From: Prevotella sp.
Lineage (GTDB): Bacteria > Bacteroidota > Bacteroidia > Bacteroidales > Dysgonomonadaceae
Assembly: GCA_031285625.1 (NCBI GenBank)
Contig: JAITVV010000007.1
Span: 1 to 64,000, forward strand
Length of the DNA: 64,000 bases
Direction: 5' to 3'
The notes below the pieces were generated by a model. It was given only the letters and a program-made list of their open reading frames with translations, had not been told where the DNA came from and did no database searches. Made by a program: the position numbers and the translations under genes. Position 1 is the first letter of the stretch, and every line of letters begins with the position of its first letter. Shown here one piece after another: positions 21,774 through 42,323 of this stretch.

Positions 21774-21847
21774 GGTCCGGTAGCTCAGCTGGATAGAGCA
21801 ACAGCCTTCTAAGCTGTGGGTCGTGGGTTCGAATCCCGCTCGGATCA
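21774..21847 (+). tRNA. tRNA-Arg (anticodon TCT)
   Basis: A full cloverleaf is present: acceptor GGTCCGG/TCGGATC with two G-T pairs, D arm GCTC/GAGC, anticodon stem ACAGC/GCTGT with loop CTTCTAA (anticodon TCT at 21808-21810), and T arm GTGGG/CCCGC with the TTCGAAT loop. CCA is not encoded. Its 3' end is the integration site of the island that follows, and the 3' end is repeated at 30207. Confidence 0.96.
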
Positions 21848-21849
21848 CT
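21834..21849 (+). repeat. Left attachment repeat (attL) of island 1
   Basis: TCCCGCTCGGATCACT covers the last 14 nt of tRNA-Arg plus two bases and occurs again, perfectly, at 30207-30222. The tRNA remains whole after integration. Confidence 0.85.
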
Positions 21850-21894
21850 TTAAGATCAGAAAATAAGTGACTTATTTCTGACAAAACAAGACAA

Positions 21895-21928
21895 AACTCT
21901 CTAAGATAGATTCTTAGGGAGTTTTTTT
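21895..21928 (+). terminator. Terminator downstream of tRNA-Arg, inside island 1
   Basis: The 12-bp stem (21895-21906 with 21912-21923, one G-U pair) encloses a 5-nt loop and is followed by seven T. An earlier imperfect hairpin lies at 21856-21881. The island therefore supplies its own terminator for the tRNA. Confidence 0.75.
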
Positions 21929-21982
21929 ATTCTCTCCCCAAGACATAATCAGTCATCAAAATGCCGATATTGGACAGTCATT

Positions 21983-22028
21983 CGTTACGGAATCGTTACG
22001 GATTTCACGAAAGACAAAAACCGTAACG
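21983..22028 (+). repeat. Candidate integrase arm-type sites, left end of island 1
   Basis: CGTTACGG occurs at 21983-21990 and 21994-22001 (11-bp step), and its inverted copy CCGTAACG at 22021-22028. The right end of the island has the same octamer pair at 30127-30145. Layout and spacing match the left end of the third unit (42102-42147). Confidence 0.55.
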
Positions 22029-22129
22029 ATTTAGAATCTAAGTTTCTCATTTGTCGATTATTGGCAGTCGCTTGTCTCCCTGACTTCTAACAAATAAATC
22101 TAGTTTTGAACTCTTAAAAATTACGAGTT

Positions 22130-23368
22130 ATGAATGTTATGAAGTCAACTTTTCGTGTGTTGTTTTATCTGCGAAAAAATGAAGTAAACAAATCCGGTAA
22201 TTCTTCCATTATGGTCAGAATTACAGTAAATGGGGAGCAAGTGCAATTTAGCTCCAAGTTGCAAATCAAACCCGAACTCTGGGATACCAAGAATGGAAAA
22301 GCCGTTGGTAAGAGTGCAGGAGCGATGAATACCAATCGTCTATTGGAAGCCATTAGTGCAAAAGCAAATGAATTGTATCATAAGCACCTGAGCGAGTACG
22401 GCTATGTCCTGCCTGAAAAAATAAAGAATATTATTCTCGGTGTTGACTCTGATAGAAGGAAGATGCTGTTGGAGCATTTTACCGAACACAATGAGTTCTA
22501 TGTATTGAAGATTGGCAAGGACACCTCTCAAATAACTGCGAATCGTTATAAGCTGACCAAACTTCGTCTACAAGAATTTCTAAAAGCAGAATATAATCTA
22601 TCGGATATTCCTGTATTTGAATTGACCCCTGTATTTGTGGAGAAGTTCTTTTTGTTTCTTAGGAATACCCATAATTGCAGCAATAATACCGCCTTGAAGT
22701 TTATCCAACGATTCAGAGCCGTATTCTATTACATTAAAAATACCGGAGCAGATATTAAGATTAATCCTTTCGGGAGTTTCAAGTTTCGTACAACCAAAGT
22801 CGTTCGGGAAATACTTACCCAAGAGGAACTTGACATCATTTACAAGAAAGAGTTTCTGACCGAACGGTTGGGACAAGTTAGGGACATTTTTATTTTTATG
22901 TGCTATACCGGGCTTAGTTACATAGATGTAGCTCAACTGACAGAGGATAATATAAAGACAGCCTTTGACGGACATCAATGGGTAATGACTAAACGCCAAA
23001 AGACAAGTGTACCCTCTAATATCCGCCTACTTGAAATTCCATTAGCAATTATAGAGAAGTATAGAGGACAACAAGCTAATGGTAAATTATTCCCAATTTG
23101 TTCCAATCAAAAGATGAATGAATACTTGAAGGAAATCGGTATAATCTGTGGAATAAATAAGGTAATCACCTGCCATGTTGCACGTCATAGCTTCGGAACG
23201 ACCGTTACGCTCGCCAATGGAGTACCTATTGAAACAGTATCGAAAATGCTCGGACATACGGATATTCGGACTACTCAGATTTATGCCAAAATAGTCGATC
23301 AGAAGCTTAGTACAGATATGGATAGCTTGGCGAAAAACTACACAAGGCGAAAATACACTAATAAATAA
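22130..23368 (+). CDS. Tyrosine recombinase/integrase, IntDOT-type
   Basis: This is a 412-residue site-specific recombinase. It has an N-terminal arm-DNA-binding domain (about residues 4-95, FRVLFYLRKNEVNKSG), a core-binding SAM-like domain (about 110-205) and the catalytic domain (about 220-405). The catalytic segment has HVARHSFGT (H-x-x-R), LGHTDIRTTQIYAK (H and the nucleophile Tyr) and a Lys in TKRQKTS. The box that holds Arg I in most of the family reads CYTGLSYIDV, with Ser in place of Arg, as in IntDOT of CTnDOT. An alternative start is at 22139. It is the first gene after attL and is expected to integrate and excise island 1 at tRNA-Arg. Confidence 0.92.
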   Translation: MNVMKSTFRVLFYLRKNEVNKSGNSSIMVRITVNGEQVQFSSKLQIKPELWDTKNGKAVGKSAGAMNTNRLLEAISAKANELYHKHLSEYGYVLPEKIKNIILGVDSDRRKMLLEHFTEHNEFYVLKIGKDTSQITANRYKLTKLRLQEFLKAEYNLSDIPVFELTPVFVEKFFLFLRNTHNCSNNTALKFIQRFRAVFYYIKNTGADIKINPFGSFKFRTTKVVREILTQEELDIIYKKEFLTERLGQVRDIFIFMCYTGLSYIDVAQLTEDNIKTAFDGHQWVMTKRQKTSVPSNIRLLEIPLAIIEKYRGQQANGKLFPICSNQKMNEYLKEIGIICGINKVITCHVARHSFGTTVTLANGVPIETVSKMLGHTDIRTTQIYAKIVDQKLSTDMDSLAKNYTRRKYTNK

Positions 23369-23373
23369 GCTCT

Positions 23374-23793
23374 ATGGAAGCAGGATACATAAAATTCACA
23401 GACGTAGAAACTGATAAACCCATTATTGAAGTAAAAATCATTGATGGTACAGTTTGGATGACAGTAAATGAGATAGCTGATTTGTTCGGGGTATATACTC
23501 CGACAATCAGCAAGCACCTCAAAGCTATCTTTAAGGATAATTTATTGAGAGAAAATGATGTTACAAAGGAGTATAGATATACTCGAAATGAAAAAGAAGA
23601 ATGTATTCGCACCTATTACAATTTGGAAGCGATTATTTTTCTAAGTTTTCGCATTCAGTCTCTCTATACAAAAGCCTTTAGAGAATGGGTGCTTAATGCT
23701 TTTTGTGAATACAGCAAAGAGAATAAGAACCATGAGGTTATTGTGATATTTAATACGAGTACAAAAAAACACTCACTTAAAACCTTGAATTAG
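23374..23793 (+). CDS. RhuM-like (Bro-N/KilA-related) DNA-binding domain protein, short
   Basis: This 139-residue protein starts 5 bp after the integrase stop. It has the pattern of the RhuM/virulence protein family: WMTVNEIADLFGVYTPTISKHLKAIF is a helix-turn-helix-like segment (about residues 29-54), followed by YYNLEAIIFLSFRIQS (about 88-103). Full-length RhuM proteins are usually over 300 residues, so this is a short form that ends in a Ser/Lys-rich tail; it may have lost its C-terminal part. Such genes are common beside integrases in Bacteroidota islands; the function is unknown. An ORF6N pseudogene starts one base after its stop codon. Confidence 0.6.
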   Translation: MEAGYIKFTDVETDKPIIEVKIIDGTVWMTVNEIADLFGVYTPTISKHLKAIFKDNLLRENDVTKEYRYTRNEKEECIRTYYNLEAIIFLSFRIQSLYTKAFREWVLNAFCEYSKENKNHEVIVIFNTSTKKHSLKTLN

Positions 23794-23794
23794 T

Positions 23795-24308
23795 ATGGAA
23801 TTACAAGTAATACAGAATAAGATATTTGAAGTTCGGGGATGTCGTATAATGATTGATTTCCACTTGGCTGAATTGTATCAGGTTGAAACCAGAGCATTGA
23901 AACAAGCGGTCAGAAGAAATATCGAGCGATTTCATGTTTGAATTGACTAATGAAGAAGCTATTCAATTGATAAACATAGGGGTATCACAATCTGTGATAC
24001 CCTCCGGCTATAATATTGGAGCATCTAAAATATTCGCATTTTCTGAGCAGGGAGTATCTATGCTTTCATCTGTTTTGCGAAGTAAAACTGCTATAGACAT
24101 CAATATTTCGATTATGAGAGCCTTTGTCGCTCTTCGTCAATATGCTTTTGGATATGCCGAACTTAGTCAGAGATTGGAAACTTTTATGCTCGAAACAAAT
24201 ATGCAATTCAATGAGGTATATCAAGCATTGACAGAGTTAGCTAGCATCAAGGAACTGGAGGATAAACCACGAAAGAGAGTCGGATTTGTACAGGATAAGG
24301 AAGAATAG
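23795..24308 (+). pseudogene. ORF6N domain protein, frameshifted
   Basis: The first frame (23795-23941) encodes the ORF6N start (MELQVIQNKIFEVRG, then LAELYQVETRALKQAVRRN) and stops after IERFHV. The continuation, FELTNEEAIQLINIG to the C-terminus (SEQGVSMLSSVLRSKTAIDI, IMRAFVALRQYAF), is in another frame from 23934 to 24308. The family normally reads RF-xx-DFMFEL here. The residual sequence CGATTTCATG is what would remain after an 11-bp deletion between two GATTT copies, so slipped-strand deletion is the likely cause (inferred). ORF6N proteins are phage or island associated DNA-binding proteins. Confidence 0.8.
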
Positions 24309-24582
24309 TTTCCTAATTTACCTTTTATAATAAGCCTTTTACATTCCAATGTAAGAGGCTTTTCTTATTTTTGTTCTTTAATCAAAAGAGAATAATGAAT
24401 CTAAGAAGTAAATTGCTGCAACGCTTGGAGATGGAAGATATTAACGAAATAACACTTCTGTATTTTTGAAACAAATAAGGGGATAAAAATGCCCCGATAT
24501 TATTTCTATCTTGTGACTCTTGCTAATATGATTAAAATTCATAGTAACTTAGAGTGACATATATCTATAATAAAAGAGTTTG

Positions 24583-27348
24583 ATGAATTGTCAGTTTGTA
24601 ATATACTTAAAAAACAAAGCATCACTAAAGTTTGAGTACAAAAGAGATGTTTCCACGGTTGTGCATACCGGCAATGGATATCGTATCACATTTAACAATG
24701 GAAAATCCTATAACTATGGAGCCGATAATGTGAACTACTATCCGCTTATATCAATGCGAGATAATGTGCGTATATATGAAAACGGCAAATTGAACAATAA
24801 ATACAATACTGTTTATAATTATAATCACTATTTGATTTTTGGAGATGAAGACAATTATTCTTATCCAATTGAAAACAACGCTGATATTGAAATATGTGAT
24901 ATAAAGAAAAATACTGCTCGGACAGAATCGGTTATCAATTACTTTAAAGAAATACTGAAAAATACAGGAGAAATTTTGTTTGATGTTCCTGCCGAAGAAA
25001 CAGAAAACAAGAATGTAAATAAAATAAGTTCCGAAATATTGCTCAAAGCCCTTGATAGCATAGATATATTAGAGTCGAGGTCGGTATTATCTAACTATAT
25101 TGACGGAACTAATCCTGCTGTCAAAAACTCTAAAGAAACCATTATATACCCATTCGGATGCAATGAAAGTCAAAAACTGGCGGTTGAAACGACTCTTAGA
25201 AATAGTATAAATATAGTAGAAGGTCCTCCGGGAACGGGCAAAACTCAAACGATCTTAAATATTATAGCCAATCTTATTGTGCAGAACAAAACTGTTGCAA
25301 TTGTATCAAATAATAACTCTGCAGTTTTCAATGTGCAAGAAAAGTTAGAAAAATATGGCTATGGAATGCTTGTGGCATCGCTCGGGAATAATGATAACAA
25401 AGCATCTTTTTTCGAAAACCTTGGAGAACAAACAATAAATAAAGATTTTAAGATATCGGCACAGAGATTAACTAATGCAAAGAATGAGATTGCTGAGTTG
25501 GATAGTATACTAACAACATGCTTTCAGTATAGAAATAAACTAGCTACCCTAAAAACAGAATTGGCAGATGCCAAAATAGAATTTGAACATATAAAAGCAG
25601 AACAGCCACTCGAACCAAATACAAAATATGTACTCGATAAGAAATTTCACCGTGATTGGAGTCTAGACAAAATTTTAAAATTGATCGGTTCATTATCAAA
25701 CGTTAGCATTAAATCTAAACTGTCTTTCATAAACAAATTACGCTTTGCTTTGCAATATGGCTTATTTGACTTTAAAATCATTAGCCAGTATAGTGAAGAG
25801 TTCCCTATTTATGCAAATCACAAATTCTATGAATTATACATCACAAAAATAGAAACTAAAATATTAGACATTGAAAATTGGTTGGTCTCTAATAATGAAG
25901 AAACCAATCTTAAGCATTTTACCGAAACATCCAAAGAAGTATTCAATGGCACACTATTCGAAAAATATAAACGATTAGGAAAATCTATGTTTTCACTTGA
26001 TGATTATCGTAATCAGTTTGATCGTTTTACAAAACACTATCCGGTTATACTAAGCTCTACTCTTTCGCTGCATACAAGTATTCCTAAAGGGTATCTTTTT
26101 GATTATCTGATTATAGATGAATCTTCACAGGTTGACATTATAAAATCTGCAGTATGTTTTTCGTGTTGCAGAAATGTAGTTATCGTAGGAGATAGTATGC
26201 AACTTAATCATATTGTAGACGAACAGAGCAAAGCTGCATCAGAATTATTTAAAACAAAGTACAACATCTCTCCTGCATATGATTATGTAGAACAGAATAT
26301 ATTAAACTCACTAAAAAGCTTGTATGGTAATAGTATAAAGACCGTTTTATTAAAAGAGCATTACAGATGTCATCCCACTATTATTGGATTCTGTAATAAG
26401 AAGTACTATAACAACAGTTTAGTTATTATGACTAATGGTAACAACCACCCGTTTAAAATCATTGAGACAAATATATCTGGCGGGAGAGACAACTACAACC
26501 AAAGACAGATAGATGAAACAGATTTCTACATTCGTCAAAATCATTCAGCAGACTATACTAAAGTCGGAGTTATTGCACCATATAGAAACCATGCAAATAT
26601 TCTACAAAAGCAACTTCCCGATGGTGCAGAAGCAGATACTATACATAAATTTCAAGGACGCGAAAAGGATGTAATCATATTCAATACCGTAAGAAATACA
26701 GTACAACCATTTATAGACAATCCCAATCTGATAAATGTAGCTGTATCAAGAGCTGTTAAAGAATTTATTGTAGTAAAACCTATATCAATGGAGCTTCCTC
26801 ACGGAACAAACATAGGCGATATGATACGCTATATATGTTATACTACCGACCCTAATGAGATAATTATTAAGGGTAGCATATGTTCTGTTTTTGACCTTTT
26901 ATACAAAGAATACAACAATGTTTTCACTTCATTCATTTCATCTAATAAGAACATAAAAGGTTCTGCCGCAGAAATTATAATTCACAAGCTGTTGAGTGAA
27001 AATATATTATTAAACAATTCCAAATTTTCATCTATTGATATGGCCAGAGAGTACAGGCTTAGAGATCTTATTCGAGATTTTAAGCCATTCTCTGAAAATG
27101 AGATTAAGTTCATAAATAGCAATTCAAGAATTGATTTTCTTTTGTATAACAAGATTGACAAAACTCCTGTACTTGCTATTGAGGTGGATGGTGTATCATT
27201 CCACAACAATGAACTGCAACATGAAAGAGACAAAAAGAAGAATAATATTTTAAAGATAATTGGACTGCCATTGCTTAGGCTATCGACAGATGGATACAAT
27301 GAGGAAACAAGGATTGTTGAAAGTTTAGAGTCTGCAATGAGACTATAG
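24583..27348 (+). CDS. Superfamily 1 helicase fused to a C-terminal endonuclease-like domain
   Basis: This is a large cytoplasmic protein of 921 residues (numbers below count from the TTG at 24580). An unrecognised beta-rich N-terminal region (1-110) precedes a UvrD/DNA2-NAM7-like helicase. The Walker A motif GPPGTGKT is at 215-222 and motif II is DESS at 513-516, with an insertion of about 290 residues between them that contains a coiled-coil-like stretch. Later motifs include LLKEHYRCHP, TIHKFQGREKDVIIF and NVAVSRAVKEFIVV. The C-terminal domain (about 800-922) ends in RIDFLLYNK (D852), AIEVDGVSFH (E868, D870) and LLRLSTDG, resembling DUF2726/Vsr-like PD-(D/E)xK nucleases. Helicase-nuclease fusions of this kind are often anti-phage genes; that role here is inferred from architecture and island context. 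Confidence 0.85.
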   Translation: MNCQFVIYLKNKASLKFEYKRDVSTVVHTGNGYRITFNNGKSYNYGADNVNYYPLISMRDNVRIYENGKLNNKYNTVYNYNHYLIFGDEDNYSYPIENNADIEICDIKKNTARTESVINYFKEILKNTGEILFDVPAEETENKNVNKISSEILLKALDSIDILESRSVLSNYIDGTNPAVKNSKETIIYPFGCNESQKLAVETTLRNSINIVEGPPGTGKTQTILNIIANLIVQNKTVAIVSNNNSAVFNVQEKLEKYGYGMLVASLGNNDNKASFFENLGEQTINKDFKISAQRLTNAKNEIAELDSILTTCFQYRNKLATLKTELADAKIEFEHIKAEQPLEPNTKYVLDKKFHRDWSLDKILKLIGSLSNVSIKSKLSFINKLRFALQYGLFDFKIISQYSEEFPIYANHKFYELYITKIETKILDIENWLVSNNEETNLKHFTETSKEVFNGTLFEKYKRLGKSMFSLDDYRNQFDRFTKHYPVILSSTLSLHTSIPKGYLFDYLIIDESSQVDIIKSAVCFSCCRNVVIVGDSMQLNHIVDEQSKAASELFKTKYNISPAYDYVEQNILNSLKSLYGNSIKTVLLKEHYRCHPTIIGFCNKKYYNNSLVIMTNGNNHPFKIIETNISGGRDNYNQRQIDETDFYIRQNHSADYTKVGVIAPYRNHANILQKQLPDGAEADTIHKFQGREKDVIIFNTVRNTVQPFIDNPNLINVAVSRAVKEFIVVKPISMELPHGTNIGDMIRYICYTTDPNEIIIKGSICSVFDLLYKEYNNVFTSFISSNKNIKGSAAEIIIHKLLSENILLNNSKFSSIDMAREYRLRDLIRDFKPFSENEIKFINSNSRIDFLLYNKIDKTPVLAIEVDGVSFHNNELQHERDKKKNNILKIIGLPLLRLSTDGYNEETRIVESLESAMRL

Positions 27349-27885
27349 GTTTGGTTGAAATACGTTCTCTCCTTTGTGATATTAATTTTTTAGAATACAA
27401 TTGGTAATTTCTTGAGAAGAGCTCCCTTTGTTTATTTTACAAAGACACTTTCTGATAGAATTTGTCTTTTATGTGATAGTTACGATAAACGTGCTATAAC
27501 TTATCCAAGAGCCACTTTCGCTCCCATTCTACTCACGATCAAGGAAGTCTTGGACTCAAAGCAGCAAGAGTACATCTAATTGTGTACACTTGCAAAGAAC
27601 TGATGTGAATCATTTTATTATCAACTATATTTTTAGATTTCTCCTTCCGTTTCTCTTATTATAACTACTCCACATTAGTATATGTCACCACTACTCGGTC
27701 ATTTTGTTCATCGGGCAAAGGTATGAATAGGTTTTAGGACTGTATATTCCAGCCTAGTGGTTTTCTCTAAAATCTTCCTCTTTCCCTGTGGGCGAGCGTA
27801 TTTAGTAGAAAAAATATGCTTTCCTAAAATCTTATACCCTTTTGTTGCCCTTGAAACAAAAAACGACCGATCCGATAGATGACGC
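27349..27885. other. Gap without a recognisable gene
   Basis: These 537 bp follow the helicase gene. I find no open frame with convincing protein sequence on either strand. The stretch 27708-27962 on the minus strand is open, but its translation resembles no known protein and overlaps the next gene. The region may be decayed sequence. Confidence 0.4.
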
Positions 27886-28170
27886 ATGAAAAAAAATGTC
27901 GCAGTTATGAGAAACGAAAAAGAAATATTGAAACAAAACTCCCTCACCTCCGGAATCATCATAAAATTGGGCTTGAGGGTCGCAGTTATTGCTCTTTGTG
28001 GGTACTTATTTTATCTGAATGGAATCTCTGTATTTGGTGTTGTTGGTGTGTATATACTTATCCGCAGTATTCTTAAAATCAGACGATTATCTATCAATGT
28101 TGTTTTTTCTCTTCTCTCTATTTTATTTCTGATAATAATAATCTCTCTTATTCTATTATTCATTTTCTAA
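27886..28170 (+). CDS. Small membrane protein, unknown function
   Basis: This is a 94-residue protein (an alternative start at 27907 gives 87). Two or three hydrophobic segments are visible: about residues 30-60 (LRVAVIALCGYLFYLN and VFGVVGVYILI) and 72-94 (VFSLLSILFLIIIISLILLF). I do not recognise a family. It is 11 bp upstream of the next gene and probably co-transcribed with it. Its place downstream of a helicase-nuclease gene makes it a candidate membrane partner, but nothing in the sequence proves this. Confidence 0.5.
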   Translation: MKKNVAVMRNEKEILKQNSLTSGIIIKLGLRVAVIALCGYLFYLNGISVFGVVGVYILIRSILKIRRLSINVVFSLLSILFLIIIISLILLFIF

Positions 28171-28181
28171 AACCTAAAATC

Positions 28182-28787
28182 ATGGAAAACAATTATAAGA
28201 ATCTCAATAAATACGAAAAATTAGCCGAAATACAAGATTTACGCCTTATGAAAAAAGAACGTTCATATGCAGCTAAGTATCTAAAAGCTTTATGGCAGAA
28301 CGATACAGCCATAATAACGGAATATGAGAGTTTTGGAAACTCTGCCCGACAACTATTAATGAACAGACGAGAATACGATCAGCATCTGTTATTTGGCTTT
28401 ACGGATATTGCATTCAATGAATACGGATGGTTGGAAAGACCTCAGTTCTTAGATGTCGAGCATTTCGAATTTCCACATCGGGACGGATGGGCGGTAAGTA
28501 ATCATATCACTATTGGTAGAGGTATTAATGGCAAATGGTCCTACGGGGCAAGTTATTCATGCAATACCAGTGGAGGTGGTTATGGTTTAGGCGTATGGGG
28601 CAAAATATTTGATGACAGAAAAAGTTGCTTAATATCTGCCTTACAAGAACTAATGGGTAAATTAAAGAAAGTAGACCAAGATAAATATACCGCTCGTGTA
28701 TTGAAGCAAGCAAAAGAGTTATTTGACACGGTTACAGGAAGAAAGGTTATACAGTTGGAATTATTTAAAACGGATAGATATGTATAG
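28182..28787 (+). CDS. Conserved island protein, unknown function
   Basis: This is a 201-residue soluble protein with no signal peptide. The N-terminal half is helical and charged (EIQDLRLMKKERSYAAKYLK). The middle is rich in aromatic residues and Gly (FGFTDIAFNEYGWLERPQF, then SCNTSGGGYGLGVWG). The C-terminal helix ends at VIQLELFKTDRYV. I have the impression that similar proteins occur in Bacteroides conjugative elements, but I cannot name a family. It overlaps the next gene by 8 bp, so translation of the two is probably coupled. Confidence 0.6.
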   Translation: MENNYKNLNKYEKLAEIQDLRLMKKERSYAAKYLKALWQNDTAIITEYESFGNSARQLLMNRREYDQHLLFGFTDIAFNEYGWLERPQFLDVEHFEFPHRDGWAVSNHITIGRGINGKWSYGASYSCNTSGGGYGLGVWGKIFDDRKSCLISALQELMGKLKKVDQDKYTARVLKQAKELFDTVTGRKVIQLELFKTDRYV

Positions 28788-28956
28788 GTTATATTTAGGA
28801 TTCAAACTATTAGGCAAATTTGATAGTATATTGGAAGCTAAACAGTTTGCAGAAAAAAGTGGATTGAGTGGGGCATTCAATCTGATTGGGGATAAGTATC
28901 GGGATGGTTGGTATGTGATGATATTTAGAGAACGTAATACTTCGAATCCTTTTTAG
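28780..28956 (+). CDS. Small conserved protein, unknown function
   Basis: This is a 58-residue protein starting MYRLYLGFKLLGKF and ending with an Asn/Pro-rich tail. It overlaps the end of the 201-residue gene by 8 bp, and the start at 28780 was chosen for this overlap. The sequence has the look of a small alpha/beta domain (LEAKQFAEKSGLSGAFNLIG, then DGWYVMIFRE). No family is recognised. Confidence 0.5.
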   Translation: MYRLYLGFKLLGKFDSILEAKQFAEKSGLSGAFNLIGDKYRDGWYVMIFRERNTSNPF

Positions 28957-29340
28957 CGGGCCTGATATGGAGAAAAGAGGAAAAACCCATAGGGTGAACC
29001 TATATTCATATATCTCAATTTCGTAGCGATAATACAATTTTGTTTTATAATTATGAAATTAGTTTTTAAAATTTCTCAAATAACAAGCACCGTGTTTAAC
29101 TATTAATTTTCTTAATTTAGAATTAGGGCTTTCTGCTATACTAATCGGGAGCAATCATATCGGGATCACCTAGTTCTATTTGCTGCATTGATAGAAAAAT
29201 ACATATTTTTTAACAACTTACGACCGATAAAAATTAAATCACATTTTTCGGATTCTAAGAGTTCTTCCATTTGTTAAGTTTCTGTTAAAAGACCAACAAC
29301 TCCTGTTATTAAATCACTTTCTTGTTTGAAATGGATTATT

Positions 29341-29753: not shown

Positions 29754-29769
29754 ATTTGATCAGCTGTTG

Positions 29770-33947: not shown

Positions 33948-33953
33948 AATATA

Positions 33954-34124: not shown

Positions 34125-35234
34125 ATGAAGAACAGGAAACCATTACAGCTCATATTGCTATTGTCGGTAATATGCCTTGCCGCTTGTAAAAGCAAAGATG
34201 TAGAAAATGAAGCGAATGCTTATCAGATAAAGGGAGATACAGTGTATGTAGATAATAACAACATTCTTATTTCGAAAATAAAACTATCAGAGGTAGAAGT
34301 TGAACCCTATTCAAAAGAAGTAATAACGGCAGGAACCGTTCAACCCATCCCTACACAATTTGCTTACGTAGCACCGCCTTTCTCGGGAAGAATTATAAAG
34401 TCATATATTAAATTAGGGCAACGGATTGCGAAAGATACTCCTTTATTTGAAATAAATTCCCCCGATTTTACTGCTGCTCAGAAAGATTTCTATCAGGCTC
34501 AATCGTCGAGGGAACTCGCTCAAAAGGAACTCAAACGTAAAGAGGATTTAATAGAAAACGGAGTCAGCTCGCAAAAAGAACTGGAAGAGGCTTTAAGCGC
34601 CTTACAGATTGCGGAGAAAGAATATGAGAATGCTCATGCGGCTTTGCTGGTCTATCAGGTAAACCCCGAAGATATGGTATTGGGACAATCGCTTATAGTG
34701 CGTTCCCCGATTTCGGGCAATGTAATAGAAAATAACATTGTTACGGGTCAATATATCAAAAACGATTCGGAACCGATTGCCACTATTGCCGACCTTTCGC
34801 AGGTATGGGTTACGGCACAGGTAAAAGAAAAAGATATCCGCTTTATACACGAAGGCGACAGCATAGAAATGTTTATGTCGGCTTATCCCGAAGAAATCAT
34901 CAACGGGAAAGTTTTCCATGTCGAAGAAGCGGTAGACGAAGCTACCCGCTCGATAAAAGTGCTGTCTGTCTGTGATAACAAAGAAGAACTCCTCAAGATA
35001 GGCATGTATACTACCGTGCACTTTCTGGACAAATCGTCCGACTTTGTCCATGTCCCCGAAAAAGCATTGCTGCAAGGAGAGAAAGACAGCTACGTATACG
35101 TGGAATCGGCGCCTAATACATATATCCGCACTCCTGTAGAAGTCGAAAGTTCAAAAAATGGGAAAGCCGTAATCGCAAAAGGACTCAGGGCTGATTGTAA
35201 AATCATTAGTGAAGGAGGGTACTATTTAAAGTAA
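34125..35234 (+). CDS. RND efflux periplasmic adaptor (CzcB/CusB type), set 1
   Basis: This is a 369-residue lipoprotein (signal ending LAAC, Cys21). It is the membrane-fusion subunit that joins the RND pump to the outer-membrane channel. The barrel-sandwich hybrid is seen in PPFSGRIIKSYIKLGQRIAK and, after a helical hairpin (about residues 115-180), SPISGNVIENNIVTGQYIK. The beta-barrel region includes LSQVWVTAQVKEKDI. Heavy-metal RND adaptors of the CzcB group look like this; no N- or C-terminal metal-binding extension with clustered Met or His is visible, so the metal is not predicted. It is the first gene of the set-1 operon and its promoter carries the TCTAA array. Confidence 0.9.
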   Translation: MKNRKPLQLILLLSVICLAACKSKDVENEANAYQIKGDTVYVDNNNILISKIKLSEVEVEPYSKEVITAGTVQPIPTQFAYVAPPFSGRIIKSYIKLGQRIAKDTPLFEINSPDFTAAQKDFYQAQSSRELAQKELKRKEDLIENGVSSQKELEEALSALQIAEKEYENAHAALLVYQVNPEDMVLGQSLIVRSPISGNVIENNIVTGQYIKNDSEPIATIADLSQVWVTAQVKEKDIRFIHEGDSIEMFMSAYPEEIINGKVFHVEEAVDEATRSIKVLSVCDNKEELLKIGMYTTVHFLDKSSDFVHVPEKALLQGEKDSYVYVESAPNTYIRTPVEVESSKNGKAVIAKGLRADCKIISEGGYYLK

Positions 35235-35332
35235 AAGTCGCAGACCTTTTTATTTACCCGAGAAGTCAAACCACAGGCATGTTGTAATCAGAAAATATGC
35301 CATTTAATTCCAACTTTCATTCAAGTTATATT

Positions 35333-37894
35333 ATGAAAAAAGATTTAATGTTGACGGTTATACAAAAAAGATGGGTGCTGCTGTGCCTATTCATTATACT
35401 CTGTTTCTTCGGTTATTACTCGTGGAAACAACTATCCATCGAAGCTTATCCTGATATTGCGGATGTTACTTCACAGGTGGTTACCCAAGTGCCAGGATTG
35501 GCTGCCGAAGAGGTGGAGCAACAAATAACGATTCCTCTCGAAAGGGCTTTAAACGGGTTGCCGGGTATGCACGTTATGCGAAGCAAAAGCACTTTCGGGC
35601 TATCGATGATAACTATCGTTTTCGAAGATGGTACAGAAGATTATTGGAGTCGCCAGAGAGTACAGGAAAGGCTCGACGAGGTGGAACTACCTTATGATGC
35701 CGTACCAGGACTAGACCCGTTAACCTCTCCTACAGGAGAGATTTACCGCTATATTATCGAAAGTGACAAACACTCGTTAAGGGAACTAACCGATTTGCAG
35801 AACTGGGTAATTATTCCACGTATCAAGCAGGTTTCGGGAGTAACTGATGTCAGCAATTTCGGAGGGATAACTACACAATATCAGGTAGAAATTGACCCAC
35901 AAAAACTTGAACAATATCATATCTCATTAGACCAAGTCATGGAAGCCATCGAGAACAATAATTCCAATGTCGGAGGCAGTGTTCTCAATCGGGGTGACCT
36001 CGGATATGTGGTAAGGGGAATCGGGCTTATTTCCGATTTGGAAGACTTAGGCAAAATTGTTGTCAGTTCCGAAAACGGAGTACCTGTTTTTCTTAATGAT
36101 ATAGGTAAACTAAAATACGGAAATCTCGAACGTAAAGGTGTTTTCGGATATACCGACCGCAAACGTGAGTATTCGGAAAGTATAGAGGGTATTGTCCTTT
36201 TATTGAAGCATGAAAATCCTTCTATTGTGTTGGAGGGTATCAAAAATGCAGTGGATGAACTGAACAGCGAAACACTTCCCGAAGGTGTGAATATTCACGT
36301 ATTTCTCGACCGTACCCAGCTGGTCGATACAACACTCCACACTGTATCGCGTACACTGCTCGAAGGTATGATTCTGGTTATTATCGTACTCATTGTTTTT
36401 CTCGGAAGTTGGCGCGGGGCACTGCTCGTAGCCGTTACGATTCCCATATCGTTACTTATTGCATTCATACTGATGCATCTCACGAATATTCCTGCAAACC
36501 TTTTATCACTGGGGGCTATCGATTTCGGTATCATAGTAGATGGTGCCATTGTGATGATGGAAACCATACTAAAGAAGAGGGAAGACCATCCGCAGGAATA
36601 TCTGGAAGAAAAAAGTATTTCGAAACGTGTAATAGAAGTTGCTAAACCGATTGCATTTGCCACTATAATTATCATCACGGCCTATTTGCCTCTTTTCGCA
36701 TTCGAACGTGTCGAACGTAAATTGTTCACTCCGATGGCATTTACGGTAAGTTATGCTTTAATCGGCGCTTTGCTGGTAGCCTTGTTTCTCATTCCGGGAA
36801 TCGGATATGCGCTTTACCGCAAACCGAAAAAGATATATCATAATAAATGGCTCGAAAAACTGACCTTGAAATATTCGGACGCAGTAAGCAAAATACTGAA
36901 AAAACCGAAAAAAGTAATCGTATCCGTCGCTGTCATTTTTGTTTGTGCCATCGGACTGTCTGTCTTTGTTGGAAAAGATTTCCTACCTGTGTTGGACGAA
37001 GGTTCTATCTGGATGCAGGTAAATCTCCCACCGGGAATATCAGTGGAAAAATCGAGGGAGCTATCCGATACACTACGGCAACGGACTATGAAGCATGGTG
37101 AAGTCACCTACATTGCCGTTCAGGCAGGGCGTAACGATGACGGTACAGACCCTTTCACTCCATCACATTTCGAGGTTTCCATCGGTATCAAGCCGTACAG
37201 TGAATGGCCGAGCGGAAAAACCAAGAACGATCTGATAGACGAATTAGCAAAAGAATATGAGTCACTGGCAGGCTTCCGTGTCGGATTCAGTCAGCCGATG
37301 ATCGACGGAGTGATGGATAAGATTGCAGGTGCGCATAGTGAACTGGTAATCAAAGTGTATGGCGACGAATTCAAAGAAACCCGACGGATTGCCGAAGATA
37401 TTATGAATACCCTGAAAAACGTGGAAGGTGCCGTCGATTTGGATATCGACCAGGAACCGCCCCTGCCTCAATTGCAGGTACATATGAACAGGGATGCCAT
37501 TGCGCGTTACGGGTTGAATGTTTCGGATGTGAGTAACCTGATTGAGGTGGCAATAGGAGGCAAAGCCATATCCCAGATTTATCAGAACGACAGAGTATAT
37601 GATATTACCTGCAAGTACGATGAAAATTCGCGCAACACCCCCGAAAAGATTGCTGCGCTGATGCTGACCTCCGCTACAGGAGCTAAGATACCGTTATCAC
37701 AGGTAGCCGATATAAAATTAAGTACAGGTGAAAGTACCATCACACGCGAAATGAACAAACGCCATCTGACCGTAAAGTTAAATCTTCGTGGGCGTGACCT
37801 CGGTTCTTTTCTTGAAGATGCCCAACATTCAATAGAAAAAAAATATAAAATACGACCACGAAAAATATCATATAAAGTGGGGCGGACAGTTTGA
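35333..37894 (+). CDS. Heavy-metal RND pump (CzcA/CusA family), set 1, N-terminal part before a frameshift
   Basis: This frame covers about 853 residues of a pump that is normally about 1030. The inner-membrane proton antiporter would move metal from periplasm or cytoplasm into the adaptor. Visible features: the first transmembrane segment, the porter domain, and a TM4 motif DFGIIVDGAIVMME with D397, D403 and E410, the three proton-relay residues of the divalent-cation (CzcA-like) branch. It also has the second porter half (FLPVLDEGSIWMQVNLPPG). After EDAQHSIEKK the frame is lost at a run of eight A (37836-37843); removing one A restores the family sequence into the next open frame. The start at 35333 was chosen because family members start MxxxxI near the first membrane segment. 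It may be a true mutation, a sequencing error or a slippage site. Confidence 0.85.
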   Translation: MKKDLMLTVIQKRWVLLCLFIILCFFGYYSWKQLSIEAYPDIADVTSQVVTQVPGLAAEEVEQQITIPLERALNGLPGMHVMRSKSTFGLSMITIVFEDGTEDYWSRQRVQERLDEVELPYDAVPGLDPLTSPTGEIYRYIIESDKHSLRELTDLQNWVIIPRIKQVSGVTDVSNFGGITTQYQVEIDPQKLEQYHISLDQVMEAIENNNSNVGGSVLNRGDLGYVVRGIGLISDLEDLGKIVVSSENGVPVFLNDIGKLKYGNLERKGVFGYTDRKREYSESIEGIVLLLKHENPSIVLEGIKNAVDELNSETLPEGVNIHVFLDRTQLVDTTLHTVSRTLLEGMILVIIVLIVFLGSWRGALLVAVTIPISLLIAFILMHLTNIPANLLSLGAIDFGIIVDGAIVMMETILKKREDHPQEYLEEKSISKRVIEVAKPIAFATIIIITAYLPLFAFERVERKLFTPMAFTVSYALIGALLVALFLIPGIGYALYRKPKKIYHNKWLEKLTLKYSDAVSKILKKPKKVIVSVAVIFVCAIGLSVFVGKDFLPVLDEGSIWMQVNLPPGISVEKSRELSDTLRQRTMKHGEVTYIAVQAGRNDDGTDPFTPSHFEVSIGIKPYSEWPSGKTKNDLIDELAKEYESLAGFRVGFSQPMIDGVMDKIAGAHSELVIKVYGDEFKETRRIAEDIMNTLKNVEGAVDLDIDQEPPLPQLQVHMNRDAIARYGLNVSDVSNLIEVAIGGKAISQIYQNDRVYDITCKYDENSRNTPEKIAALMLTSATGAKIPLSQVADIKLSTGESTITREMNKRHLTVKLNLRGRDLGSFLEDAQHSIEKKYKIRPRKISYKVGRTV

Positions 37895-38438
37895 AAATCA
37901 ACACCGCGCCTATTCACGCTTAGCTGTTATTGTTCCTTTGGCTCTGGCAATTATGTTTATCTTGCTGTATGCCGCTTTCGGAAAATTCCGTCAGGCAGGA
38001 TTGGTTTTGACCATTGTTCCGTTGGCTTTGTTCGGCGGCATGCTCGCCCTCAATCTAAGAGGAATGACGCTGAACGTATCTTCTGCAGTCGGTTTTATCG
38101 CTTTGTTCGGTGTCGCCATTCAAAACGGCGTGATTATGATTTCGCATATCAATGGTTTACGCAAAGACGGAATGCCATTACTAAAAGCGGTTTCTGATGG
38201 TACACGTCATCGTTTCCGCCCGATACTGATGACTGCGACAGTTGCTATATTGGGATTATTGCCTGCTTCTCTTGCTACGGGTATAGGTTCTGATGTACAG
38301 CGTCCCCTTGCCACCGTTATCGTATACGGTCTGATGTTTTCGACTATTATTACCCTGTTTGCCTTACCTGTCTTTTATTACATGATAGAAAATAAAGCAG
38401 AAAAATCAAAAAAAGAATCGGAATATGAAAATAAATAA
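37844..38438 (+). pseudogene. Heavy-metal RND pump, set 1, C-terminal part after the frameshift
   Basis: This is the continuation of the pump gene in the +1 frame. It reads KYDHEKYHIKWGGQFENQHR just after the A8 run and then carries the last transmembrane segments (LAIMFILLYAAFGKFRQAGL, GFIALFGVAIQNGVIMISHI, and MTATVAILGLLPASLATGIG). The join to the upstream frame needs only one base. The end overlaps the outer-membrane factor gene by 14 bp. The part from 37938 could be translated alone from an internal ATG, but would be only 166 residues and not a working pump. Confidence 0.85.
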
Positions 38439-39678
38439 AGTACAATCCATAATAGTAATGAGTATTCTCATCCTGATGAATTTTGCGGCCTTTGCACAGT
38501 CGCAGAATTCTATGGATGGAATGAATCCAATTTTATCTTTCCACGAATATTTAAATCAGGTGGGAAAAAAGAACCTCAATTTTCTGGCTGAAAAATACAA
38601 TGTAGATATTGCCGAAGCCGAAATGATTGCACAAAAAGTGCTTCCCGACCCCGATTTGGAGTTTGAAGCGGCGGACGAAACTTTTACTCTGGGATTAGCT
38701 TATAACCTTGAACTGGGTAATAAACGCGGTGCGAGAGTACGTCTTGCCAAAAGCCAGTCGGAATTAGAAAAGCTGGTTCTCGAATATTATTATCAGGAAT
38801 TGCGTGCCGAGGCTGCCAATTTGTTTCTGGATGCCATACAACAGCGGGAGCTGCTGACTGTGAAGAAAAGCTCTTATGAATATATGCTGCAATTGAGCCA
38901 TTCGGACAGTATCCGTTTTCGTTTGGGAGAAATAACCGAAACCGATGCCCGTCAATCGAAACTGGAAGCAGCCACTTTACTCAATGATGTTTTTGAACAG
39001 GAAGCTGTATATAAATCGACATTGGTGTTACTCAATCAATTTATGGGCAGAACCTCTGATACCCTGAATATTCCTTCTGGAAAGTGGGATACATTGAATA
39101 GGGAATATATACTTCCTGAGCTTACGTCCTTAGGACTAACTACTCGTATAGATTTGTTTGCTGCAAACAAAAACATTGAAGTGGTAACGAACCAACATAA
39201 ACTGGTAAAAGCCGAACGAAAAATGGATTTAGGTTTGTCACTTAATTACGAACGGGATTGGCATGGATTCCTTCCGCCATCCCGTTCATTTACGGCAGGT
39301 ATTTCTATTCCGCTTAAGTTCTCCAACCTGAATAAAGGCGCAGTGAAAGCGGCACAATTCGGGATAGAACAATCGAAAATCCAGCAACAGAATATGGAGT
39401 TGCAAATCAAATCCGAAATATCACAGGCATTTTTTCATTTCGAGGCTGCCAAGAAAAAATTAAGGCAGTACCAGTCAGGACTATTAGACGAATCCCATAA
39501 AATACTGGATGGTATGGTTTATAAATACAAACGCGGCGAAACAAGCATTATGGAAGTCCTGATTGCTCAACGTACCTATAATGAAGTTCAGGAGCAATAT
39601 CTGGAAACCATGAAAGGATATGTTTCGTCTTTAGTCGAACTGCAAAAAACATGTGGTATATGGGACATTGAGTTCTAA
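38425..39678 (+). CDS. Outer-membrane efflux protein (TolC family), set 1
   Basis: This is a 417-residue outer-membrane factor with a signal peptide (cleavage near residue 24, AFAQS). It has long alpha-helical stretches and a duplicated TolC pattern: ADETFTLGLAYNLELGNKRG and SLNYERDWHG with PPSRSFTAGISIPLKFSNLN are the usual beta-barrel strands. Its role is to carry metal from the adaptor-pump complex to the outside. It starts within the 3' end of the pump gene, so the order is adaptor, pump, channel. Length is within the CzcC/CusC range. Confidence 0.88.
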   Translation: MKINKVQSIIVMSILILMNFAAFAQSQNSMDGMNPILSFHEYLNQVGKKNLNFLAEKYNVDIAEAEMIAQKVLPDPDLEFEAADETFTLGLAYNLELGNKRGARVRLAKSQSELEKLVLEYYYQELRAEAANLFLDAIQQRELLTVKKSSYEYMLQLSHSDSIRFRLGEITETDARQSKLEAATLLNDVFEQEAVYKSTLVLLNQFMGRTSDTLNIPSGKWDTLNREYILPELTSLGLTTRIDLFAANKNIEVVTNQHKLVKAERKMDLGLSLNYERDWHGFLPPSRSFTAGISIPLKFSNLNKGAVKAAQFGIEQSKIQQQNMELQIKSEISQAFFHFEAAKKKLRQYQSGLLDESHKILDGMVYKYKRGETSIMEVLIAQRTYNEVQEQYLETMKGYVSSLVELQKTCGIWDIEF

Positions 39679-39684
39679 AAAGTT

Positions 39685-39692
39685 TATCTTTG
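39685..39692 (+). promoter_or_regulatory. Possible internal -7 box before response regulator 1
   Basis: TATCTTTG lies 25 bp before the regulator start. A -33 TTTG box is not found at the usual distance, so the two-component genes may instead be read through from the efflux operon. Confidence 0.35.
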
Positions 39693-39717
39693 CTTTATAG
39701 CCTTTATTCTATTTGGT

Positions 39718-40407
39718 ATGAAAAAAATATTGGTCATAGAAGATGAAAAACGGATAGCCGAAATTTTGCAGAAAGGCCTTTATGAATTCGGCTTCGAAGT
39801 TAGTGTCGCTTTCGATGGAGATACAGGTAAAAGACTCATTAATTCGAATTCTTACGACCTCATCATTACGGACATCATTCTTCCTCATCACAATGGCTTT
39901 GAACTGACAAAGGTAATTAAGGATAAGAACCCTCATACGCCTGTAATCATGCTGACGGCACTCGGTGCGACAGACGATAAGCTGGACGGATTCGATGCTG
40001 GAGCCGACGATTATATGGTAAAACCGTTTGACTTACGGGAATTGAATGCACGGATAAATGTGCTGTTGAAAAGACATCCAAACCAGAACGAAAATGTTGT
40101 AATGAATGAACTGAAGTATGATAGTTTAACTATGCAACTGGACACCAGAAAGGTCTTTCGTTCAGGAAAAGAAATAAAACTAACCCCCAAAGAATTTAAC
40201 CTGCTGAAATACCTGCTCGAAAATCCCGAAAGGGTTTTGCCCCGTTCCGAAATAGCCGAAAAAGTATGGGACACGCATTTCGATACGGGTACTAATTTTA
40301 TAGATGTGTATATCAATTACCTGAGAGGAAAAATTGATAAGGCTTTCGATAAGAAACTCATTCATACTAGTCCCGGCATCGGATTTATTCTAAAATCGGA
40401 AGAATGA
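39718..40407 (+). CDS. OmpR-family response regulator, set 1
   Basis: This is a 229-residue regulator: a receiver domain (about 1-120, phosphoacceptor D52 in IITDIILPHHNGFEL, conserved Lys in YMVKPFDLRELN) and a winged-helix DNA-binding domain (about 130-228, with LTPKEFNLLKYLLENPERVL and FIDVYINYLRGKID). It is of the CusR/CzcR type that controls metal efflux. Its stop overlaps the kinase start by 4 bp (ATGA). It is the most likely binder of the twin TCTAA arrays in front of mgtA and the set-1 efflux operon. Confidence 0.93.
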   Translation: MKKILVIEDEKRIAEILQKGLYEFGFEVSVAFDGDTGKRLINSNSYDLIITDIILPHHNGFELTKVIKDKNPHTPVIMLTALGATDDKLDGFDAGADDYMVKPFDLRELNARINVLLKRHPNQNENVVMNELKYDSLTMQLDTRKVFRSGKEIKLTPKEFNLLKYLLENPERVLPRSEIAEKVWDTHFDTGTNFIDVYINYLRGKIDKAFDKKLIHTSPGIGFILKSEE

Positions 40408-41774
40408 AGATAAAGACCAAAATAGCGCTTCGATACTCGATTGTCACCGCCATATTAATGGCGGTTTTCGCTACTATTGTCTATTTTGTTTCAGCTCACG
40501 ACAGGGAAATCGAATTTTATGATGACCTCTACAAAGAAGGCGTATCGAAAGCTAATTTATATTTCGAAGCGAAAGCCAGTCCCGAAACCATGCATTCCAT
40601 CTATAAGAACAACATAGAATATATCGACGAAGTGGAAGTCGCCATTTACAATACGCAGTTCAGCCTTTTGTATCATGACGCAAAAGATATAGATATTGTA
40701 AAGGAAACGCCTGACCTTATCACAAGAGTTATCAATTCAAAAAAGAACATTGATTTTTATGTGGAGAAATATCAGGCAGTCGGTTTTATCTTTCATCACA
40801 ATAATTCTCAGTATATAGTTACGGCAGCAGCTTTTGACGGTTACGGTTATAATAAATTGCACAGGCTTTTTGTCAATTTACTTATCCTTACCCTCCTTTC
40901 TATAATTACTTCTTTTATTGTCGGTTACTATCTGGCAAAGAGAGCCCTGAAACCTGTATCGGAAATCTCAAACAAGATGAAAGAGATAACCGCCAATAAT
41001 CTGGATTTAAGATTACTCAGCTACAATGAGAAAGACGAATTCGGAGAATTGGCGACTTCCTTCAACAAAGCTCTGGATATTATAGAATCTTCTTTCGAAT
41101 CGCAGAAAATGTTTGTCAGTAATGTGTCGCATGAATTGCGGACTCCGCTGGCTACCTTAATCGGTGAAATTGATTATGCTTTGTTGAAAAAGCGTACCAT
41201 TGAAGAATATATCCATACACTCCAAACATCGAAGCAAGATACTGTACGCCTGATAAAATTGGTGAACGGTTTACTCGATTTGGCCAAAGCAAGTTATGAT
41301 GAAAGCAAAATATCGATGGGAGAAGTACGTATAGACGAGATACTCCTCGATGCGAGGGAAGAGGTTTTAAGGTTGAATCCTGATTACAAAATCGATTTAC
41401 AATTTACACATCCTACAGAAAACGATTCCGAATTAATTGTTTCAGGTAATGAATACCTTTTGAAAACCGCTTTCTCTAACCTAATGGAGAATAATTGCAA
41501 ATTTTCTGCCAATAGAACATCGACCGTGAAAATATATTCAGTGGAAAACTCATTGCATATAAGCTTCTCCGATACGGGTATTGGTATCCCGTCTGAAGAT
41601 TTGGAGAATATCTTTAAACCATTCTACAGGGGAAGAAACAAAGAATTCATTGATGGCAACGGTATAGGTCTGGCTCTGGTCGATAAAGTTATCAAGATTC
41701 ATAAAGGAAAGATAGGAATAGATTCAGTTATTGGCGTCGGCACGGTTTTTAATATTGAATTCTTTGTCCTTTGA
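40404..41774 (+). CDS. Sensor histidine kinase, set 1
   Basis: This is a 456-residue inner-membrane kinase. Transmembrane segments lie near residues 10-30 and 155-180 with a periplasmic sensor loop between; a HAMP domain follows (about 178-230). The H box SHELRTPLATLIGE has H243. The ATPase domain has the N box LMENNCKFS, the G1 box DTGIGIP and the G2 box GNGIGLAL. It pairs with the overlapping response regulator. The signal is presumably a periplasmic metal, from gene context; the sensor loop has no obvious Met or His cluster. Confidence 0.92.
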   Translation: MKIKTKIALRYSIVTAILMAVFATIVYFVSAHDREIEFYDDLYKEGVSKANLYFEAKASPETMHSIYKNNIEYIDEVEVAIYNTQFSLLYHDAKDIDIVKETPDLITRVINSKKNIDFYVEKYQAVGFIFHHNNSQYIVTAAAFDGYGYNKLHRLFVNLLILTLLSIITSFIVGYYLAKRALKPVSEISNKMKEITANNLDLRLLSYNEKDEFGELATSFNKALDIIESSFESQKMFVSNVSHELRTPLATLIGEIDYALLKKRTIEEYIHTLQTSKQDTVRLIKLVNGLLDLAKASYDESKISMGEVRIDEILLDAREEVLRLNPDYKIDLQFTHPTENDSELIVSGNEYLLKTAFSNLMENNCKFSANRTSTVKIYSVENSLHISFSDTGIGIPSEDLENIFKPFYRGRNKEFIDGNGIGLALVDKVIKIHKGKIGIDSVIGVGTVFNIEFFVL

Positions 41775-41861
41775 ATATAAAGTAGTAAATTATATTCCAA
41801 AGAATACAAGTCAACTCTAAGCCAAAAGTGGCATTTTGAGAGACAATCCAAAGACAGAAAC

Positions 41862-41880
41862 TGTTACTAAATCGTTACTA
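41862..41880 (+). repeat. Candidate arm-type sites, right end of island 2
   Basis: TGTTACTA (41862-41869) and CGTTACTA (41873-41880) are 11 bp apart, 70 bp before the proposed core at 41951. Island 1 has the same layout at its right end. The rest of 41775-42296 holds no gene. Confidence 0.45.
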
Positions 41881-41950
41881 TTTGGATTGCATATATTAAG
41901 TAAATGACTGACAATTATCAATTTAAAATATAAATTGGTTGATCCATATG

Positions 41951-41958
41951 GGATCACT
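41951..41958 (+). repeat. Proposed degenerate attachment core between island 2 and the third unit
   Basis: GGATCACT equals the last 8 bases of the 16-bp att core. By itself an 8-mer is weak evidence. Its support is its position: 78 bp after the arm-type pair and 48 bp before a strong terminator, as at the two better junctions. Confidence 0.4.
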
Positions 41959-42006
41959 AGGCGAACCGAACCTTCGGGGACAGTTCAAAGCCAAAAGCAC
42001 AGGAAA

Positions 42007-42040
42007 GTCTTCTAAAGTATTAGTTTAGAAGACCTTTTTA
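42007..42040 (+). terminator. Terminator at the start of the third unit
   Basis: GTCTTCTAAA (42007-42016) and TTTAGAAGAC (42024-42033) form a perfect 10-bp stem with a 7-nt loop, followed by a T-run. Confidence 0.75.
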
Positions 42041-42101
42041 TTTAATAAATTCTCCTGAGAGACTTCACCAAGACATAAAAAGCCTTCAAAAAATCGAAAA
42101 T

Positions 42102-42147
42102 AACTACTAAATCACTACTGCTTTAGTTTCGAGTAAAAACAGTAGTT
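42102..42147 (+). repeat. Candidate arm-type sites, left end of the third unit
   Basis: AACTACTA (42102-42109) and CACTACTG (42113-42120) are 11 bp apart, and the inverted copy CAGTAGTT lies at 42140-42147. The layout (11-bp step, then inverted copy starting 20 bp after the end of the second box) is the same as at 21983-22028, although the octamer differs. Confidence 0.5.
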
Positions 42148-42220
42148 GTCTTTGGATAAAAACTCTCATTTACTGCTCGTTTTGACAGTCAAGAGAAAGA
42201 CATAAGTCTTTATTTAATTT

Positions 42221-42299
42221 TCTAATCTATTTTTAATCTACCTATAATCCTCATCTAATATAACTCAAAGAAACGTCTAATCTTTGGGAAATATATTTG
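42221..42299 (+). promoter_or_regulatory. Efflux operon 2 promoter with 11-bp-spaced TCTAA-like boxes
   Basis: Boxes TCTAA, TTTAA, TATAA and TCTAA start at 42221, 42232, 42243 and 42254, and another TCTAA is in phase at 42276. A candidate -7 box TATATTTG is at 42292-42299. The phase is the same as in the island 2 arrays, but the distance to the -7 box differs. Confidence 0.5.
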
Positions 42300-42323
42300 C
42301 ATCATAAAAATTGTATGCGTGCA

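Follow-up and report, generated by a model that had tools for sequence, protein, structure and literature searches.

Attachment ends behind tRNA-Arg(TCT)

The stretch of DNA analysed here, called the window, comprises 64,000 nucleotides of a genome deposited as Prevotella sp. and placed by GTDB in the Dysgonomonadaceae (assembly GCA_031285625.1, contig JAITVV010000007.1, positions 1 to 64,000). It holds a tRNA-Arg(TCT) gene followed by a tandem array of three genomic islands, units 1 to 3, bordered by three left and two right attachment ends (Table 1). Such ends recur and meet one another in other genomes of the genus Dysgonomonas, and the array is very probably the product of site-specific accretion. 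Genomes, contigs and loci are cited by working labels (G, C and L with a number; G000 is the window's own genome).

The core sequence GGATCACT is found in the window at 21842-21849, 30215-30222 and 41951-41958; because it sits at all three junctions, their end coordinates are exact. Unit 1 spans 21842-30222 (8.4 kb) and unit 2 spans 30215-41958 (11.7 kb). Each left end reads in the same order: core, terminator, a TTAC-type pair spaced by 11 bp, and a CAGTC-like motif. Terminator-like stems lie just 3' of each core, where shuffled sequences gave means of 0.2, 0.1 and 0.0 per region (left ends 1, 2 and 3). The left end is bounded on its inner side by the CAGTC/CAGCC motif: the near-identity of two genomes with common cargo starts just inside it. 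Both the terminators and this motif had been pointed out in an earlier note made from the sequence alone, and both hold.

Right ends start with a AAGCCAAAAGTGG-like sequence (one type only), followed by a TTAC-type pair and then the half-sites. The TTAC-type half-sites repeat with an 11-bp period. In the two right ends of the window this repeat begins 85 and 86 bp ahead of the core; over the 28 right ends examined the distance is 82-86 bp in 24, the other 4 having no pattern match (this set differs from the 28 model hits described below by two in and two out). The octamer pair that the earlier note saw is this repeat. Under the strict TAC-N8-TAC pattern it also occurs in all three window left ends and in 8 of 23 others; among the left ends outside the pattern, some have other pairs by eye (GGTACC, GGTGCC) and some have none.

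Across the 28 right ends examined, the sequence in general reads like GATCC-N4..6-GGATCAC, that is, half-sites GATCC/GGATC around a variable spacer of 4-6 bases. The spacer often equals that of tRNA-Arg (CGCTC; window 30215 and several others) or tRNA-Lys (CAGCG; G018:C184, G018:C209 and G015:C12); ATATG (window 41951) and AAGTG also occur. Few bases are shared at the third junction because the spacer between the core half-sites varies, so the 8-base match that had been taken for a weakness there is none. Relatives of left end 3 lie directly behind tRNA-Arg (G011, L059; G020, L134), directly behind tRNA-Lys (G024, L132; G020, L135) and beside integrases (G018:C68, G018:C261, G024:C76).

Genes of the units

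Unit 1 carries a tyrosine integrase with the three domains of the Bacteroidetes type (arm-binding, SAM-like core-binding and catalytic); the gene begins 281 bp beyond the final base of the core. Its nearest relatives lie in named Dysgonomonas records, which makes the window part of a Dysgonomonas-like genome. An integron integrase is not indicated (model integrase_gron, 54.5 bits against a cut-off of 265). No conjugation genes (relaxase, coupling protein, type IV secretion system) were found by Pfam among the 5 frames of at least 100 aa in unit 1, which is thus not classed as an integrative and conjugative element (ICE), and no conjugation gene was found among the 18 proteins of 22130-49893 (Pfam scan). 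The helicase-nuclease of unit 1 partially matches the Mokosh (MkoA/MkoC) and PDC-S37 defence models and may serve in defence, as cargo of the unit that has the integrase.

By Pfam, the 8 main frames of unit 2 concern ion transport, efflux and regulation only. The permease of its resistance-nodulation-division (RND) pump is split over two reading frames and therefore looks interrupted in the assembly. Neither unit 2 nor unit 3 has a recognisable integrase (profile of related integrases against all frames of at least 60 aa). After unit 3, a third CusA/CzcA-type RND operon with a two-component system lies on the minus strand (49918-57517); in G029, from another genus, its orthologue starts 2.3 kb behind tRNA-Arg(TCT), with no recognisable ends.

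Table 1. Features of the tRNA-Arg(TCT) array in the window
Feature	Position	Strand	Remarks
tRNA-Arg(TCT)	21774-21848	+	Attachment target; core made up of its last 7 bases and the one that follows
Left end 1, long type	21842-22074	+	Terminator 21893-21925
Left end 1, inner parts		+	11-bp-spaced TTAC pair, first TAC at 21986; CAGTC motif at 22065
Tyrosine integrase, 412 aa	22130-23368	+	Arm-DNA-bind_5 (PF17293), Phage_int_SAM_5 (PF13102) and Phage_integrase (PF00589) above cut-off
RhuM-like frame	23374-23793	+	Below Pfam cut-off
ORF6N-like frame	23934-24308	+	Below Pfam cut-off; with frame 23795-23941 looks interrupted
SF1-type helicase with C-terminal nuclease-like domain	24580-27348	+	AAA_11/AAA_12/DUF2726; unit 1 cargo
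Two small frames, unit 1	27886-28170, 28182-28787	+	Relatives in integrase-bearing units behind tRNA-Arg elsewhere
Right end 1	30070-30222	+	11-bp-spaced TTAC pair 85 bp before core; spacer CGCTC as in tRNA-Arg
Left end 2, short type	30215-30440	+	Terminator 30232-30264; opens unit 2
Mg2+ P-type ATPase	30577-33231	+	Unit 2 cargo
MgtC family protein	33246-33947	+	Unit 2 cargo
RND adaptor, CzcB/CusB-like	34125-35234	+	Unit 2 cargo
RND permease, two frames	35297-37894, 37938-38438	+	Czc/Cus-type pump, unit 2
Outer-membrane efflux protein	38425-39678	+	Unit 2 cargo
Response regulator	39718-40407	+	Unit 2 cargo
Histidine kinase	40404-41774	+	Unit 2 cargo
Right end 2	41801-41958	+	Closes unit 2; 88.5% identity with its counterpart in a starch-type PUL unit of G024
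Left end 3, long type	41951-42195	+	Terminator 42007-42033; no integrase behind
Outer-membrane efflux protein, RND adaptor, CusA/CzcA-type RND permease, response regulator, histidine kinase	42297-49893	+	Directly behind left end 3

Recurrence of the ends in Dysgonomonas

Models of the right end and the long left end were built from the window ends and their first relatives and run over 25 Dysgonomonas genomes. Because many of the ends counted also went into the models, the end scores are partly given by construction; the positions of the junctions are not. Used singly as nhmmer queries, left end 1 matched G003 (2e-43), left end 3 matched G018:C68 (6e-35) and right end 2 matched G024:C76 (3e-30), and the window ends and their relatives have core, terminator and repeats in common in the alignments. 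The three left and two right ends proposed in the earlier note are thus genuine attachment ends.

Right ends of at least 40 bits number 28, in 12 of the 25 genomes. Fifteen of them run into a left end at the core, in 8 genomes including the window's own (10 long type, 5 short type), in keeping with the tandem accretion of related elements that the earlier note suggested. Nine of the 10 long-type junctions have a left end of at least 60 bits, and the tenth (G010:C55), cut by a contig end, reaches 37.5 bits. Three of the 15 junctions have a degenerate core (two in G012:C4, one in G017:C2). Another left end, or none that is recognised, lies behind the remaining 13 right ends, two of which then run into terminator-bearing sequence known behind tRNA-Arg (G024:C44, like L050; G012:C4 386654, like L052). 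In the wider family, searched with stricter filters, 25 of 91 genomes, the genus included, have some right-end match at an E-value of 0.001 or better, and G036 (two), G062, G072, G078 and G082, all from outside the genus, have right ends that score above 57 bits.

The search of other genomes that the earlier note had recommended yielded 26 long-type left ends of at least 60 bits, in 15 of the 25 genomes, besides the six short-type ends described below. Twelve lie directly behind tRNA-Arg(TCT), 2 behind tRNA-Lys(TTT) and 9 behind a right end; the position of 3 is undetermined. Of the 25 assessable ones (G020:C264 was left out, its contig ending too early), 15 are closely followed by an integrase and one (G011) by a fragment; the stretches fetched behind the other nine show none: G024:C97, G006:C49, G016:C21 (twice), G000 41951, G005:C1 (twice), G019:C47 and G003:C1 4920519. 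The left end of unit 1 and the start of its integrase are also present in G018:C184 and G015:C12 (both 87% at the nucleotide level), there following a different right end. With one collection searched for each, the junction of right end 2 and left end 3 gave no plasmid match and that of right end 1 and the short left end no phage match; in a plasmid near-search with 21600-31000, the tRNA stretch alone matched (6 records).

Further arrays show features of their own. The window's own genome has a second integrase-bearing unit of about 20.6 kb (G000:C4:1-20720, L148-L149), with a different core (GGGACCAC) and a cargo that by eye resembles a polysaccharide utilisation locus (PUL); 1.9 kb at its left is 87% identical to G016:C43. 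Inside one array unit of G005:C1, 2,745-bp inverted copies (418128-420872 and 438651-441395; L055/L245) are 100% identical, contain 523- and 248-aa frames and are probably insertion sequences. G003:C1, a one-contig genome, has an exact 1,146-bp tandem duplication at 2129106-2131398 (L156).

Short left ends and their cargo

For the short left end that opens unit 2, the genus-wide search gave 6 instances above 100 bits in 5 genomes (window 30215, G024:C76, G003:C1, G017:C2 and two in G012:C4) and nothing else above 32 bits, the next hit scoring 31; all six were part of the model used. All six are internal. Five come after a right end that the model recognises; the sixth, in G003, comes after a unit at tRNA-Lys that has an integrase and a far end which the right-end model does not recognise. 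Both G012 ends show partial decay: their cores are degenerate, and neither has a clear repeat pair. No short-type unit has a recognised integrase (0/6, against 15/25 assessable long-type ends; two-sided Fisher 0.018, the fragment counted as none), and in the second G012 unit, which is open at its far end, 19.9 kb was searched.

The cargos are whole operons of unrelated kinds. The window unit holds a metal operon, from the Mg2+ ATPase to the two-component system; G003 has a xylan-type PUL (hybrid two-component regulator, SusC/SusD, GH3, GH10); G017 has a starch-type PUL (SusC/SusD/SusE, GH97, GH31, GH65), with the same cargo by DNA in G024; and G012 has a P-type ATPase, Fur and an ABC exporter. 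That the short left end might be the host's own tRNA flank is rejected, as it is present in arrays of both tRNA-Arg and tRNA-Lys. Capture of chromosomal DNA lying beside a tRNA is unsupported as a rule: in G003:C1 (2184949-2199400), G007:C121 and G019:C27 a starch-type PUL sits immediately upstream of tRNA-Lys(TTT), which also serves as an attachment site, but in G002, G012, G016, G011 and G021 the fetched stretches around it show no tRNA, and in G018 its neighbour is tRNA-Gly/Tyr.

Cargo and ends tell different stories. The PULs of G017 and G024, which are different species, are 92.3% identical over 17.1 kb, far more alike than the TGT-CNNM locus of the same genomes (75.2% over 3.7 kb, this being one marker locus only), which points to recent lateral spread of the unit; matches of the starch-type PUL in other genomes are mostly 68-77% identical, with one 2.5-kb stretch at 83%. 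Further sequence evidence suggestive of recent transfer is the 98.9% identity of G015:C12 and G018:C184 over 14.7 kb, spanning the right/left junction and the integrase start. The ends of the G017 and G024 units are 57.8% (left) and 64.6% (right) identical, with different cores. The G024 left end is closer to those of G003 (84.9%) and window unit 2 (75.5%), and its right end is closer to that of window unit 2 (88.5%), all with different cargo. End similarity thus disagrees with cargo similarity, so that frame and cargo have separate histories.

On one reading, the short left end would mark operon cassettes of a class of their own, which lack an integrase and swap their cargo within a fixed frame, rather than chance products of ICE decay. 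The absence of integrases from all six, the lack of a seventh instance in the genus, the presence of at least four unrelated cargos and the independence of end likeness from cargo speak for such a class. On the other side stand the small number of units, their use in the search model, the decay of the two G012 ends, and the fact that decay of one ancestral element followed by its spread would give the same pattern. A dedicated class is possible on balance, and rather doubtful.

Relation to known systems

Tandem accretion of ICEs and integrative and mobilisable elements (IMEs) with cis-mobilisable elements (CIMEs) at tRNA genes is a known process (PMC5704250). CIMEs are, like the integrase-less units described here, bounded by attL and attR, lack integration or transfer genes, and are stacked next to an element with an integrase at the 3' end of a tRNA (PMC5704250); the units of the arrays differ in carrying a whole metabolic or metal operon and in the common short left end around unrelated cargos. 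Unit 2 has the structure of a CIME, with a left end at 30215 and a right end reaching 41958, the same core at both, and no integration or transfer genes. Its ends are similar to those of integrase-bearing units, and no intermediate in a loss of modules from an ICE or IME was found. Unit 3 lacks the attL and attR pair of a CIME, no right end having been found up to the contig end at 192,892.

CTnDOT of Bacteroides has a heterologous coupling sequence between its core half-sites. The short variable spacer of the array resembles it, and the integrase likewise has an arm-binding domain; the array differs in its target, a tRNA 3' end, and in that no conjugation genes were found in unit 1.

In Dehalococcoides, several islands likewise lie in tandem behind one RNA gene, ssrA; 16 have and 15 lack an integration module, and catabolic genes are carried (PMC3146451). 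Serine recombinases and a tmRNA site are involved there, whereas tyrosine integrases and tRNA-Arg or tRNA-Lys are involved here. The array of the window would work in the manner of these islands and of CIME accretion. The 'Tyr duo' of Prevotella MTnPi (PMC5704250) resembles the two adjacent integrases behind some left ends (G018:C261, G024:C76, G015:C12, G002:C17), but the window has a single integrase and no tandem pair. Tycheposons, with a characteristic gene set, are another kind of cargo element integrated at tRNA genes. Tandem integrase pairs behind third-type left ends were observed at G018:C261 16557-19118, G024:C76 4421-7006 and G024:C111 5756-8313, the outer left end of the last being missing.

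No account of such Dysgonomonas arrays appears in the titles and abstract openings of papers on accretion and CIMEs, tycheposons, islands and PULs in the one library searched. Three things seem to be new: the arrays recur across the genus, a short left end of its own type frames unrelated operons in units that lack an integrase, and PULs are among the cargo.

Formation of the array

The best explanation, held with high confidence, is site-specific accretion of integrative elements and of integrase-less, CIME-like units at tRNA-Arg(TCT). The 3' end of this tRNA would be the attachment site for tyrosine-integrase elements, with successive insertions stacked head to tail. Each unit would consist of a core, a left end of about 220 bp (terminator, arm-type repeats), the cargo, a right end of about 155 bp and again a core, the right end comprising arm-type repeats and then inverted half-sites GATCC-N5-GGATC flanking the exchange region. 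The TTAC pairs are candidate arm-type sites for the Arm-DNA-bind_5 domain of the integrase, the half-sites taking the putative core role.

Each new insertion would restore the tRNA 3' end and supply its own terminator, probably in place of the one from which the tRNA is cut off whenever an element inserts; left ends may outlast their elements for this reason. Unit 1, which has an integrase, would be the youngest. Unit 2, having both ends and no integrase, would need an integrase supplied in trans, or else leave together with unit 1 via the outer sites, as a cis-mobilisable element. Unit 3 would be a left end retained from an element that lost its integrase, now abutting a metal-efflux operon. 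The ends, the junctions, their recurrence in other genomes and the lack of a recognisable integrase in units 2 and 3 are observed; the arm and core roles of the repeats, the order of insertion, the mobility of the units and their mobilisation in trans or in cis are inferred.

Several observations weigh against this account. The right end of unit 3 was not found up to the end of contig C28 at 192,892 (by model; by motif and model to 101.8 kb), and the third island, having a left end only, may be a relic. No genome with a precisely empty site for any unit was found among the relatives compared, and no excision was observed; most genomes are drafts, the window's own being 94% complete in 96 contigs. 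The similarity of left and right repeats is modest in a permutation test (13 units, 0.02), on which little weight is placed because the repeat caller missed repeats in several ends. In some bounded units (I_G015, N_G005a) the two repeats look unlike by eye, so not every left/right pair is one element and some units may be composites. The upstream neighbourhood TGT-CNNM-glyoxalase-tRNA-Arg is kept in G014, G017 and G018, and in G014 and G017 no left end was found behind that tRNA-Arg. As an empty site for the whole array these two genomes were rejected: no C28 protein (21-101.8 kb) is colinear with the 39-40 kb fetched downstream.

The earlier note had named, as a finding that would refute its reading, the presence of 30223-41958 at an unrelated locus with other borders in related genomes, and this is partly so: in the stretches fetched from other Dysgonomonas genomes, the cargo of units 2 and 3 occurs without recognisable ends. 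Together with the commonness of left ends lacking an integrase (9 of 25 assessable long-type ends), this would fit units 2 and 3 being ordinary chromosomal operons behind a tRNA, and the ends at 30215 and 41951 dispersed repeats or decayed scars. Such an origin is improbable: at 15 junctions both ends have the same orientation and abut at the core, similar repeats occur in the two ends of unit 2, a frame like that of unit 2 surrounds the unrelated starch-type PUL of G024, and the short left end, occurring in arrays of two tRNAs, is no host flank.

A second alternative is that units 2 and 3 are remnants of a single larger ICE-like element, broken by recombination between end repeats. The pairs with unlike repeats would fit it, as would G024:C111, where part of an inner right end appears to be joined to an inner portion of a left end, the product expected of deletion between repeats. 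It is less probable still, given that cores and full-length ends are intact at 30215 and 41951, that left ends 1, 2 and 3 are of different types, and that the Pfam scan of 22130-49893 turned up no conjugation gene.

Significance

Under site-specific accretion, the array offers a route by which Bacteroidota could gain or lose complete sugar-use and metal-handling operons as tRNA-adjoining units without a mobility gene of their own. The conserved ends ease the finding and annotation of such arrays, define PUL and efflux islands with single-base precision, and make mobilisation of integrase-less units in trans or in cis directly testable. A bolder idea, unlikely on the present evidence and slightly more so than a dedicated cassette class as such, is that Dysgonomonas keeps integrase-less operon cassettes in which whole operons are swapped into a fixed frame and moved in trans by the resident integrases of neighbouring units in the same tRNA array. 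If true, tRNA arrays would be an operon-sized counterpart of integron cassette arrays.

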